Shown here: in pieces, positions 57,258 through 63,688 of the stretch
Numbering within the stretch: the first letter of the stretch is position 1
Layout of the letters: the number at the start of each line of letters is the position of its first letter
DNA from: Reyranella sp. CPCC 100927
GTDB taxonomy: Bacteria; Pseudomonadota; Alphaproteobacteria; Reyranellales; Reyranellaceae
Direction: 5' to 3'
DNA: 64,000 nt
Assembly (NCBI RefSeq): GCF_007859315.1
Contig: NZ_VOHA01000030.1
Location: 1-64,000, forward strand
The notes under the pieces: generated by a model
Databases searched by the model: none
What the model saw: only the letters and a program-made list of their open reading frames with translations
What the model was told of the DNA's origin: nothing
Position numbers and translations under genes: made by a program

Positions 57258-57462
57258 ACGCCCCCTCTGTCCGGTGACCTGAAAGATTGGTCGGCCGCGC
57301 GAACGCGCCCAACTTACCTCGTCGGTGGATCGCGCCGGCCCCGCCGGTCACGACCGCTTTCCAGAGTGCCATCCCCCCGCGGTCCGGTGGCCTGAGAGTT
57401 TCCGGGGCGGTTGCTCCTTCGGCGGCCTGCCGCCGAAGCGACAGGCTCTCTCCCACGGGGAT
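57258..57462 (-). ncRNA. Tandem glycine riboswitch controlling gcvT-H-PA-PB
   Basis: On the minus strand aptamer 1 (about 57462-57378) reads GTGGGAGAGAGCCTG ... AAGGAGCAACCGCC ... AAACTCTCAGGCCACCGGAC. Aptamer 2 (about 57370-57258) has GACGAGGTAAG ... AATCTTTCAGGTCACCGGAC AGAGGGG. The paired 'GGAGAGA...CTCTCAGG...GGACAGAGGGG' pattern is the conserved gly riboswitch core. It ends ~45 bases before gcvT, close enough to control initiation. Glycine binding should switch the operon on. Confidence 0.93.
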
Positions 57463-57803
57463 CATCTGACCGGCCGACCATAAACCGCGGCCCCATTGCA
57501 GCGCAACGGCAGGCCGCTGCCGGCGTGGTCGATTTGTCGTGGACAACCAATTCTGCGGCTGCAAATTCGTCCCGGCTGCCCGCGTCCGGGCGGCCGTCAG
57601 GCACCGCGCCGGCGGCTTCGTTAGCCTGCGAACGACTACACGTTCAGAGCCGAACCCAGGACGGCGCCTCAAATGGTCACAGGCCGGGTCGGCGCAACGT
57701 TGCGGCAATATTGTTCGACATCCGACAAAAGCGCCGGGATTCCCGAGGGTTGGCCTAAAATCGGGTCTTCCCTAAGCGGCTGCTCACCATTAATAATCCC
57801 GCC
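57463..57803. other. Intergenic region between the gcv riboswitch and the TetR gene
   Basis: No gene is seen. It must carry the leftward gcv promoter and a rightward promoter for the TetR gene (AT-richer GCGGCAATATTGTTCGACAT near 57700 and ATTAATAATC just before the start). I cannot fix either promoter with confidence. Confidence 0.4.
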
Positions 57804-59289: not shown

Positions 59290-59397
59290 GGTTGCTTCCT
59301 CGCGAATGGGCGGTCTGGTAGGGTGTCTTACGCCGCCGGTGCGAGCCGATTCTAGAGGATGCTCCGCAGCCGCGACAAGCGAACCTTCCGATCAACC

Positions 59398-60354
59398 ATG
59401 CCATCCGCCGCCGCCAAGCCGCCCCTGACCATCCTGCTCGCCAGCCCGCGCGGCTTCTGCGCCGGCGTCGACCGGGCGATCCAGATCGTCGAACGCGTCC
59501 TGCTGAAATTCGGGCCGCCCGTCTATGTGCGCCACGAAATCGTGCACAACCGCTTCGTCGTCGAAAACCTGGAGGCGAAGGGCGCCATCTTCGTCGAGGA
59601 GCTGGACCAGGTGCCGGACGGCCGGCCGGTGGTCTTCAGCGCCCATGGCGTGCCCAAGGCCGTGCCGGCCGAGGCGGCGCGACGCCACATGATCCATGTC
59701 GACGCCACCTGTCCGCTGGTGTCCAAGGTCCACCGCGAAACCGAACGCCACCATGCCGCCGGCCGCACCGTGATCCTGATCGGACACAGCGGCCATCCGG
59801 AAGTGGTCGGCACCATGGGCCAGCTGCCGCCGGGTGCCGTGATCCTGGTCGAAACGGTCGAGCAGGCCGAGCGACTGGAAATCGCCGACGCCGACAGCCT
59901 CTCGTTCGTCACGCAGACAACCCTGTCGGTCGACGATACGGCACAGATCGTCGCCGTCCTGCAGCGCCGCTTCCCGCATCTCAATGGCCCCAAGCGCGAA
60001 GACATCTGCTACGCGACCACCAACCGGCAGGCGGCGGTGAAGGCGATCGCAACGGACTGCGACGGCTTGATCGTGATCGGTGCGCCCAACTCGTCGAACT
60101 CGATGCGGCTGGTCGAAGTGGCGCGCGCCTACGGATGCCCCAAGGCGACGCTGGTGCAACGCGCTGCCGACATGGACTGGCGCTGGCTCGATGGTGTATG
60201 GCGATTGGGGATCACGGCTGGCGCGTCGGCGCCCGAGCTTCTGGTCGAGGAGCTGCTCGCCGCCTGCCGTGCCCGCTATGCCGTGACCATCGAGGAAGTA
60301 CGCGTGACCGACGAAAACACGGTGTTCAGGCTGCCACGCGCCCTGGTGGCTTGA
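59398..60354 (+). CDS. ispH: 4-hydroxy-3-methylbut-2-enyl diphosphate reductase
   Basis: 318 residues. The three cluster cysteines lie in [25 protein letters not shown] and [12 protein letters not shown]; the catalytic Glu is in SFVTQTTLS region and SAHGVP, GHSGHPE are standard. It makes IPP and DMAPP at the end of the MEP pathway. ATG 59398 gives the conserved length; an ATG at 59359 is possible. It overlaps thrB by one base (TGATG). Confidence 0.96.
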
Positions 60355-61313
60355 TGGCCGTCTATACCGAGGTTGCCGACGACCAGCTCGATGCGTTCCT
60401 GGCCGAATACGACATCGGCGAGCCGCAATCGTGCAAGGGCATCGCCGAAGGCGTGGAGAATTCCAACTACCTTCTGGCCACCACGCGCGGCACCTATTTC
60501 CTGACGTTGTACGAAAAGCGCGTCGATCCGCGCGACCTGCCGTTCTTCCTCGGCCTGATGGACCACCTGGCGGCGCGCGGCATTCCCTGCCCGACGCCGG
60601 TGCATGGTCGCGACGGCCGCGCGCTGCGCACCCTGGCCGGCCGGCCGGCGGCGATCATCACCTTCCTGTCGGGGCTGTGGCCGCGGCGCATCACGGTCGA
60701 CCATTGCGCGCCGGTCGGCGCGGCGATGGCGCGCCTGCATCTGGCGGCAGCCGACTTCACGCTGAAGCGTCCCAACGCACTGTCCGTCGCCGGGTGGCGC
60801 CCGCTGTTCGACAGCACCCGCATGCGGGCGCACGAAGTCGCACCCGGCCTGGCCGACGAACTGGCTGCCGACCTCGCCGTGCTCGAGCGCGACTGGCCGC
60901 GCGATCTGCCCGCCGGCGTCATCCACGCCGACCTGTTTCAGGACAACGTGCTGTTCCTGCATGAGACGCTGAGCGGCGTGATCGACTTCTATTTCGCCTG
61001 CAACGACCTGCTGGCCTATGACGTGGCGATCTGCCTGAACGCCTGGTGCTTCGAGGCCGACCGCAGCTTCAACGTCACCAAGGCGCGCGCCCTGGTGAGC
61101 GGCTACCAGCAGGTGCGGCCGCTGTCGGCGGCCGAGCGCCACGCCCTGCCGCTGCTGGCGCGGGGCGCCGCGATGCGCTTCCTGCTGACGCGGCTCTACG
61201 ACTGGCTGCATACGCCGCCCGGTGCCATGGTCAAACGCAAGGACCCGCTGGAATACCTGGCGCGGCTGCGCTTCCACCGCGGCGCCGGCGGCCCGGACGA
61301 TTACGGCCTATGA
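60354..61313 (+). CDS. thrB: Homoserine kinase (APH-fold type)
   Basis: 319 residues. [20 protein letters not shown] and [20 protein letters not shown] start the alphaproteobacterial ThrB2-type enzyme; [15 protein letters not shown] is the catalytic loop and [18 protein letters not shown] the Mg site. It phosphorylates homoserine for threonine synthesis. Overlaps both neighbours, ispH and rnhA, so the three are one operon. Confidence 0.95.
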
Positions 61314-61801
61314 CCGACACAGCGCCTGATCCCGCCGTCGAGATCTTCACCGACGGCGCCTGCAGCGGCAATCCCGGCCCCGGCGGCTGGGGTGCTTTGT
61401 TGCGCTACAAGGATGTCGAGCGCGAGTTGTCGGGCAGCGAGGCCACCACGACCAACAACCGCATGGAGATGATGGCCGCGATCATGGCGCTGGAAGCGCT
61501 GAAGCGGCCCAGCATCGTGCAGCTGTTCACCGACAGCGTCTACCTGCGCGACGGTATCACCAAGTGGATCCACGGTTGGAAGCGCAACGGCTGGCGCACG
61601 GCCGACAAGAAGCCGGTGAAGAACGTCGACCTCTGGCAGCGGCTGGAGGTAGCGCTGCATTCGCACCGCATCGAATGGCACTGGGTGAAAGGGCACGCCG
61701 GCCACCCCGAGAACGAGCGCGCCGACGCCCTGGCACGCGCCGCGATCAAGGAGCTGCGCGAAAGCCGGGCTTCCGAGAAGCCTCTGCCGTCGACGGGTTG
61801 A
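61310..61801 (+). CDS. rnhA: Ribonuclease HI
   Basis: 163 residues. The D-E-D-D residues lie in [38 protein letters not shown] and [12 protein letters not shown]. It cuts RNA in RNA-DNA hybrids. It overlaps thrB by 4 nt (ATGA). A family D repeat follows the stop. Confidence 0.97.
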
Positions 61802-61933: not shown

Positions 61934-61964
61934 AAAAAGAAAGGGCGGCCGGAGCCGCCCTTTC
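61934..61964 (-). terminator. Terminator of the Cys peroxiredoxin gene
   Basis: On the minus strand GAAAGGGCGGC-TCCG-GCCGCCCTTTC followed by TTTTT, 17 bases past the stop. Confidence 0.9.
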
Positions 61965-61981: not shown

Positions 61982-62464
61982 TTACAGCGCTTTCAGGATG
62001 GCATCGCCGCTCGACACGTCGAAGGCGCCCGGCGCTTCGACGTTCAGCGTCTTGATGACACCGTCCTGGACCACCATGGCATAGCGCTGCGAACGCTTGC
62101 CAAGACCGAACTTCGAGCCGTCCATCACCAGGCCCATCTTTTCGGTGAAATCGCCGTTGCCGTCGGCCAGCATCAGCACCTTGCCGTCGCTGTTCTGGTC
62201 CTTGCCCCAGGCGTCCATCACGAAGGCATCGTTGACCGAGATGCAGGCGATGGTGTCGACGCCCTTGGCCGTGATGGCATCGAAATTGGCCACGAAGCTG
62301 GGCACGTGCTTAGCCGAACAGGTCGGCGTGAAGGCGCCCGGCACGGCGAACACCACCACCTTCTTGCCGGCCGCGAACAGCTCGTCCGTCGGCATCGGCT
62401 TGATACCATCGGCACCCTTGTGCATCAGGGTCGCGCTGGGAACCTTGTCGCCTACTTTCGCCAT
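61982..62464 (-). CDS. Prx5-type peroxiredoxin (Cys form)
   Basis: 160 residues. PGAFTPTCSAKHVPSF holds the peroxidatic Cys49 in the TPTCS context of the Prx5 group, and DTIACISVNDAFVMDAWGKD has Cys74. LGKRSQRYAMVVQDGVIK is also conserved. It reduces H2O2 and organic peroxides with a thiol donor. ATG 62464 has GGAGG five bases upstream. Its paralogue of the same length, with UGA instead of Cys49, lies just upstream on the same strand. Confidence 0.95.
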   Translation of the reverse strand: MAKVGDKVPSATLMHKGADGIKPMPTDELFAAGKKVVVFAVPGAFTPTCSAKHVPSFVANFDAITAKGVDTIACISVNDAFVMDAWGKDQNSDGKVLMLADGNGDFTEKMGLVMDGSKFGLGKRSQRYAMVVQDGVIKTLNVEAPGAFDVSSGDAILKAL

Positions 62465-62526
62465 AGCATCCTCCATTGGCGGTAACTCTCACGCTGGGCG
62501 GCAGATCAGCACGGATCGCGGCAAAA

Positions 62527-62557
62527 CGAAAGGCGGGATCGTGCATCCCGCCTTTCG
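62527..62557 (-). terminator. Terminator of the Sec peroxiredoxin gene
   Basis: On the minus strand CGAAAGGCGGGAT-GCACG-ATCCCGCCTTTCG followed by TTTTGC, 20 bases past the stop. Confidence 0.9.
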
Positions 62558-62577: not shown

Positions 62578-63060
62578 TTACAATCCCTTGAGCACCGCCT
62601 CAGCCGCCGACACCTCGAAGGCGCCCGGCTTCTCGACGAAGAGCCCCTTGATGGTGCCATCCTCGACGACCATGGCGTAGCGCTGCGAGCGCCGCCCCAG
62701 CCCGTTGCGCGTGGCATCGAGCACAAGTCCCATCGCTTCGGTGAACTCGCCGTTGCCGTCACCGAGCATCATGACTTTGTCACCAGTGCCCTGGTCCTTG
62801 GCCCAGGCGCCCATGACAAACGGATCGTTTACGGAAATGCAGGCGATCGTGTCGACGCCTTTGGCCTTGATCGCATCGTGGTTGGCCAGAAAACCTGGCA
62901 CATGCTTGGCACTTCAAGTCGGCGTGAATGCCCCGGGCAGCGCGAAGACAACCACCTTCTTGCCCGGCGCGAACAGCTGCGCGGTGGTGATCGCCTGGGG
63001 GCCTTCCCCCGTCATATAGCGCAGAGTCGCCGATGGTACCTTGTCCCCTACAGTCGCCAT
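62578..63060 (-). CDS. Prx5-type peroxiredoxin with in-frame UGA (predicted selenoprotein, Sec49)
   Basis: From ATG 63060 (MATVGDKVPSATLRYM) the frame reads 48 codons to PGAFTPT, meets UGA at 62916-62914, and goes on in frame as SAKHVPGFLANHDAIKAKGV, DTIACISVNDPFVMGAWAKD to TAA at 62578. With UGA as Sec the protein has 160 residues, exactly the length of the Cys paralogue, with U at the peroxidatic Cys position (Cys49). The sequence on both sides is fully conserved, so it is not decayed. A hairpin beyond the UGA fits a bacterial SECIS. Sec at this site should speed peroxide reduction. AGGACAGG precedes the ATG. Confidence 0.92.
62885..62899 (-). promoter_or_regulatory. Candidate SECIS hairpin of the Sec peroxiredoxin
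   Basis: In the mRNA: GCCAG, loop GUUUU, CUGGC, with a possible extra U-A pair across a bulged C. The loop starts at the 20th nucleotide after the UGA, the same as in the UGSC gene, and has G first. Confidence 0.7.
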
Positions 63061-63190: not shown

Positions 63191-63688
63191 ATGGGCAACA
63201 CCTACTCCATCACGCGCGGCGAGGGGCTCGACCTTTACCTCTCCAACGGCGGAACCGACGTCTTCCTGGACGTCATGACCCTGGCGAGCTGTCCGCTGGC
63301 GCACACGCCGTGGCAGCAGAACCTGGCCTTGCTGTTCGCCGACAGCCAGCGCTTCGGCTACGGCTTCGCCGGCTTCGCATTGGACGAACTGCCGTGGACG
63401 TCGGACGCACCCGAGGAGCGCCGCTTCCTGCTCGCCGTCATCGACAAGGCGCTGACCCGGCACGGGTGGAACCTGCTGACCTACGATCCGCCCTTCGCGC
63501 AGGGCTATCTGGAGACCTATCGCACCATGGTCGAAAGCTTCACGCCCGTGCCGACCGTGTCGGCGCATTTCGGCGATTGGCGCGCGGCACCCGATGCCGA
63601 TCTGGTGCGGCGCTGCCCCCAGCACGACGTCTTCCAGGGCCTGGCGGGATGCCGGCTGTGCGATACCAACCTGCAGCCCGCGCCGTGA
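63191..63688 (+). CDS. Conserved-type hypothetical protein
   Basis: 165 residues, soluble. MGNTYSITRGEGLDLYLSNG and SCPLAHTPWQQNLALLFADS lead to a domain rich in Trp, Phe and Pro; the C-terminus GCRLCDTNLQPAP has a CxxC, with CPQHD nearby, so a metal site is possible. No family is recognised. It is divergent from the Sec peroxiredoxin gene, with only ~130 bases between them. Confidence 0.7.
   Translation: MGNTYSITRGEGLDLYLSNGGTDVFLDVMTLASCPLAHTPWQQNLALLFADSQRFGYGFAGFALDELPWTSDAPEERRFLLAVIDKALTRHGWNLLTYDPPFAQGYLETYRTMVESFTPVPTVSAHFGDWRAAPDADLVRRCPQHDVFQGLAGCRLCDTNLQPAP

Follow-up and report, generated by a model that had tools for sequence, protein, structure and literature searches.

Peroxiredoxins that carry selenocysteine (Sec) are already known from the COG1225/PF00578 TxxU family, PrxU and the Prx-like UxxC families (PMC13188914, PMC2398784), and genomes that hold both a Sec and a cysteine (Cys) version of one enzyme are known as well, as in the isoenzyme sets of Methanococcus maripaludis (PMC11097638). 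The window considered here (the whole stretch of 64,000 nucleotides that was analysed) contains two adjacent peroxiredoxin genes, called prxU and prxC, which appear to form such a Sec/Cys pair. In having Sec at the peroxidatic position within a TxxU motif, prxU is like PrxU of Eubacterium acidaminophilum and the COG1225/PF00578 family, but it differs from them in subclass, which is Prx5/PF08534. With the PF08534 redoxin selenoprotein (PMC13188914 Table 1; Prx-like 3 of the GOS survey, PMC2398784) it shares the Pfam name, although the motif of that protein is UxxC and prxU reads TPTUSAKH, with no UxxC. Sequence family, length and a PGAFTPTC-type active site are shared with the plant and bacterial type II/Prx5 peroxiredoxins (PDB 1tp9, 3uma, 4f82) and human Prx5 (1h4o), all of which have a peroxidatic Cys where prxU has Sec. 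The Methanococcus sets are archaeal, serve mostly energy metabolism and include selenium-regulated Cys forms, whereas the present pair is an alphaproteobacterial peroxidase pair.

The subclass of prxU follows from its profile matches. Both proteins match PF08534 Redoxin (prxU at 1.9e-36, 125.5 bits), and prxU is akin to solved Prx5/PrxII structures (best 1.4e-47). Against the NCBIfam PrxU model (NF040737) it scores 25.5 bits, below the curated cut-off of 270; because of this score and the missing UxxC motif, prxU is assigned to the Prx5 subclass. It is thus a Prx5-subclass member among known Sec peroxiredoxins. A PF08534 redoxin does appear among the 119 entries of the 2026 selenoprotein inventory, but it is of the UxxC type (PMC13188914), and a TxxU selenoprotein of the Prx5 subclass is absent from the open-access inventories consulted. 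Titles, abstracts and counts in the open-access literature likewise returned no paper that connects bacterial selenocysteine to Prx5-type proteins, nor any that treats selenoproteins in Reyranella. Such proteins could have gone unnoticed within the broad "TxxU Prx" counts of older surveys.

The tandem pair and its locus

Both genes are encoded on the minus strand, close to the right-hand end of the window, with prxU upstream, prxC downstream and 113 nt between them. The features of the locus are as follows.

62578–63060, minus strand: prxU, Prx5/PrxII-type peroxiredoxin of 160 aa whose codon 49, an in-frame TGA, is taken to encode selenocysteine (from translation)
62914–62916, minus strand: Sec-UGA codon 49 of prxU at the peroxidatic position, PGAFTPT-U-S (from sequence and conserved copies)
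62885–62899, minus strand: putative bSECIS apical hairpin, GCCAG-GUUUU-CUGGC (from sequence, folds and synonymous-site constraint)
62523–62557, minus strand: terminator-like hairpin after prxU, a perfect 13 bp stem with only a TTTT tail (from a fold of the intergenic region; no score from the terminator scanner)
61982–62464, minus strand: prxC, Cys paralogue of 160 aa with TGT at codon 49 (62318–62320) (from translation and identity)
61939–61964, minus strand: intrinsic terminator after prxC, 11 bp with a T-rich tail
61310–61801, plus strand: rnhA, a convergent neighbour that marks where the ancestral prx5 lay (from sequence and tblastn synteny)
60354–61313, plus strand: thrB-type homoserine kinase, conserved neighbour (from synteny)
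59359–60350, end approximate, plus strand: ispH, conserved neighbour (from synteny)

A sequence-only reading of the window had described two tandem Prx5-type genes of 160 residues, strongly identical, with Cys49 (TPTCS) in one and UGA at the same codon (TPT-UGA-S) in the other, each followed by its own terminator. The translations bear this out: the genes are of equal length, their products are 70% identical, and codon 49 is TGT in prxC and TGA in prxU. A search of the 9.08-Mb genome recovered these two as its only close Prx5 copies. The claim about terminators also holds for the window, and the presence of a separate terminator-like hairpin after each gene suggests that prxU and prxC are transcribed separately. 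Hairpins similar to the one after prxU occur in the other three loci of the same genus; in the remaining tandem loci, which belong to other genera and have gaps of 65–75 nt, no hairpin with a T-tail was found. At four loci (L021, L104, L105 and L106) a hairpin that is long and stable (-46 to -50 kcal/mol) and has no T-tail fills the Sec–Cys gap of about 75 nt. A promoter-like pair, ATGGACAA ... CTAGG(T/G), recurs in tandem loci no more than about 120 nt upstream of prxU and is clearest in L021, L104–L106 and L068.

Predicted selenocysteine insertion

The UGA of prxU aligns with the redox Cys of its homologues, as expected of a selenoprotein gene. According to the published rule, a bSECIS element has a small apical loop with a G in its first two positions, 16–37 nt after the UGA (PMC13188914). 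The putative hairpin in prxU sits 15–29 nt after the UGA and its loop, GUUUU, begins with a G that is the 20th nucleotide after the UGA, which fits this rule; the fold at the Sec codon of this genome's formate dehydrogenase likewise has its loop G at nucleotide 20. The stability of the prxU hairpin does not exceed that of shuffled sequences (z -0.26), and its near invariance leaves no covariation to test. Because the folding energy is not significant against shuffles, synonymous-site constraint is used as evidence instead. The stretch after the TGA, AGYGCNAAGCATGTGCCAGGKTTTCTGGCC, is almost identical throughout the main Sec clade. Among amino-acid-invariant codons of 19 Sec genes, the mean frequency of the commonest codon is 0.971 in codons +1 to +11 versus 0.717 elsewhere, and in the same genes 7 of 11 codons inside this stretch are wholly invariant versus 4 of 66 outside it (permutation p ~5e-6, Fisher 3.7e-5). 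The window's clade of Cys copies shows no such synonymous freeze (0.875 inside versus 0.864 outside).

Judged by its gene content, the cell should be able to make selenocysteine. A tRNA-Sec gene (72.9 bits) and SelB, both over their cut-offs, are on contig C35 of the genome, SelA was recognised by reading the open reading frame beside SelB at L099, where it has no HMM score and an FdhE-like protein comes next, and SelD (over the cut-off) is on contig C39 of the window's own genome (G000; L181, L184). Close to SelD on C39 is a formate dehydrogenase alpha gene with exactly one in-frame TGA, which gives the genome one or more classical selenoprotein genes in addition to prxU. SelB is present in all 24 genomes that carry a TGA copy of prx5, yet because it is found in 72 of the 75 family genomes this co-occurrence adds little. 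The tRNA-Sec gene lies about 4.6 kb away from selB on C35 and so is not nested inside it; such nesting is described for some Alphaproteobacteria (PMC8124441).

Phylogenetic distribution and alternative readings

By homology search, 24 of 75 family genomes, spread over all five genera, have a Prx5 copy with a single in-frame TGA. A DNA pattern search likewise gave 24 of 75 genomes with TGA at the same codon, and the reversed control pattern gave no matches. In samples of 385 genomes from the class and 398 from the phylum the pattern was not found outside the family, the only matches being family members. Relatives with the Sec copy only, the Cys copy only or both all occur, and several genomes hold the TGA copy alone, including G071 and G027, which are 100% complete. 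Since about two thirds of the family genomes have no Sec copy, this copy is dispensable. Viral origin was considered as well, but viral contigs do not contain the TGA motif, which leaves that reading unsupported.

These data bear on what the UGA represents. The reading that we favour, at a probability of about 0.93, is that prxU would be a genuine selenoprotein of the Prx5/PrxII subclass, and that the pair would stem from a tandem duplication in which the upstream copy changed from Cys to Sec and gained a bSECIS element. Sequencing error at the TGA is ruled out by the retention of the same TGA in 24 genomes, and the possibility raised by the sequence-only reading against itself, that resequencing would turn up TGT or TGC, is contradicted by the same observation. 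A second ground on which that reading could have fallen, the lack of Sec machinery, does not apply to a genome with tRNA-Sec, SelA, SelB, SelD and a TGA-containing formate dehydrogenase. Its judgement that a chance nonsense mutation is improbable agrees with the distribution just described. Prx5 redundancy could nevertheless have allowed prxU to decay by nonsense mutation into a pseudogene, a working Cys paralogue being next to it and the TGA copy being missing from many family genomes; conservation across 24 genomes and five genera argues strongly against this, as do the Sec machinery, the genomes in which the TGA copy stands alone, and the median dN/dS of 0.27 after the UGA and hairpin, a sign of purifying selection, together with the synonymous-site constraint just downstream of the UGA. 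Decay of this kind is thus extremely improbable. It is also very unlikely that the UGA is decoded as Trp or Cys by a near-cognate or suppressor tRNA, an idea which draws on the fact that prxU is known here as a sequence; the UGA falls exactly at the catalytic cysteine, a bSECIS-type hairpin follows it, and the genome has dedicated Sec machinery.

Evolutionary history of the Sec and Cys copies

Many alphaproteobacterial outgroups keep a single Cys Prx5 with rnhA and thrB next to it, and ispH as well where this gene was covered. In the window and its nearest relatives both prxU and prxC occupy this place, with prxC nearest to rnhA, and in G071 the Sec copy stands there alone. Because the outgroups have one Cys gene at the locus, synteny points to Cys as the ancestral state and to the Sec copy of the window as derived, which supports the earlier proposal of duplication followed by a Cys/Sec change and gives that change a direction. 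The ancestral Cys Prx5 at rnhA-thrB-ispH would have been duplicated in tandem, and most likely the upstream copy turned to Sec, gaining its bSECIS element, before the five genera of the family split. The trees neither establish nor reject monophyly of the Sec genes (AU p 0.30 on protein, 0.20 on DNA) and so do not fix the number of Sec origins.

The later history is more intricate. The prxC of the window falls in a separate clade of downstream Cys copies from two genera (support 97/93). The Reyranella Cys copies, in contrast, group with the Sec clade and not with the prxC of the window (99/98 in a DNA tree with the active-site codons removed), which implies that Sec went back to Cys or that the tandem genes underwent gene conversion with each other. 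A later Sec/Cys exchange thus occurred in Reyranella, and it could have run in either direction. If by conversion, the Reyranella Cys copies would be orthologues of the window's prxC whose flanks were overwritten from the adjacent Sec gene, and not revertants; this concerns history only, and the prxU protein would still contain Sec. The Reyranella tandems keep the same order, Sec upstream and Cys downstream, and the serine that follows codon 49 is encoded by TCN in their Cys genes, as mostly in Cys outgroups, but by AGY in the main Sec clade, so that point reversion would need several changes. Serine-codon usage therefore seems to favour conversion or a mixed history. The grouping with the Sec clade tells against conversion, and placing every Cys copy of the family in a single clade is disfavoured on DNA (AU p 0.023 with two odd Sec genes included), the protein values being 0.131 with these two genes and 0.029 without them. 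Taken together, conversion is a serious contender whose chances are somewhat short of even.

Two Sec genes, L161 (in G033) and L075 (in G057), have TGA at codon 49, lack the standard hairpin sequence and show a Cys-type hairpin region; L161 also keeps the Cys-type serine codon after its TGA (TGA TCC). These are possibly later, independent Cys-to-Sec gains, or a broken gene, and the trees do not decide. A wider scenario, in which the family has repeatedly switched its catalytic residue in both directions, by Cys-to-Sec change in the old tandem copy, Sec-to-Cys change in Reyranella and a fresh Cys-to-Sec gain in G033 and perhaps in G057, with some of the switching due to exchange between adjacent tandem copies, is a tentative and rather doubtful proposal.

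Proposed catalysis and significance

In the Prx5 family the peroxidatic residue is activated by a pocket of Pro, Thr and Arg. By this chemistry Sec49 is presumably the peroxidatic residue of prxU, and Cys74 may be the resolving residue, with regeneration presumably by glutaredoxin, glutathione or thioredoxin. The PxxxTxxC/U active-site motif and the second Cys 25 residues further on are present and invariant across the main-clade Sec genes, and Cys74 is invariant in Sec and Cys genes alike. Insertion of selenium into the prxU product, and any gain in activity, are predictions made from the gene. SelB would bind the hairpin and bring Sec-tRNA-Sec to the UGA. With the conserved Pro42, Thr46 and an Arg holding the substrate, either H2O2 or an organic hydroperoxide, Sec49 would then attack it through its selenolate, giving a selenenic acid that would be resolved by Cys74, unless glutaredoxin/glutathione or thioredoxin does so directly. 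When selenium is lacking, translation would end at 48 residues and prxC would cover the function. By analogy with Methanococcus (PMC11097638), prxC may thus be a back-up under selenium shortage; no regulatory element for selenium-dependent switching between prxU and prxC was found.

The natural Cys/Sec comparison within one genome that had been anticipated from the window is indeed available, and the pair is moreover family-wide. Such pairs address the old question of why cells pay for selenocysteine when cysteine suffices, as side-by-side Sec and Cys enzymes allow rate, resistance to over-oxidation and selenium-dependent expression to be compared, and relatives with Sec only, Cys only or both offer many natural replicates of the exchange. 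Automatic annotation could easily call such genes broken or truncated.

Two other features of the window may be mentioned. An open reading frame at about 63191–63688 (plus strand, coordinates approximate) is divergent from prxU, and a search of the relatives' loci gave no match to it. At 57263–57465 on the minus strand, two glycine riboswitch aptamers (RF00504, 69.6 and 39.1 bits) lie in tandem upstream of apparent glycine-cleavage genes (gcvT, gcvH, gcvP) at about 52–57 kb.
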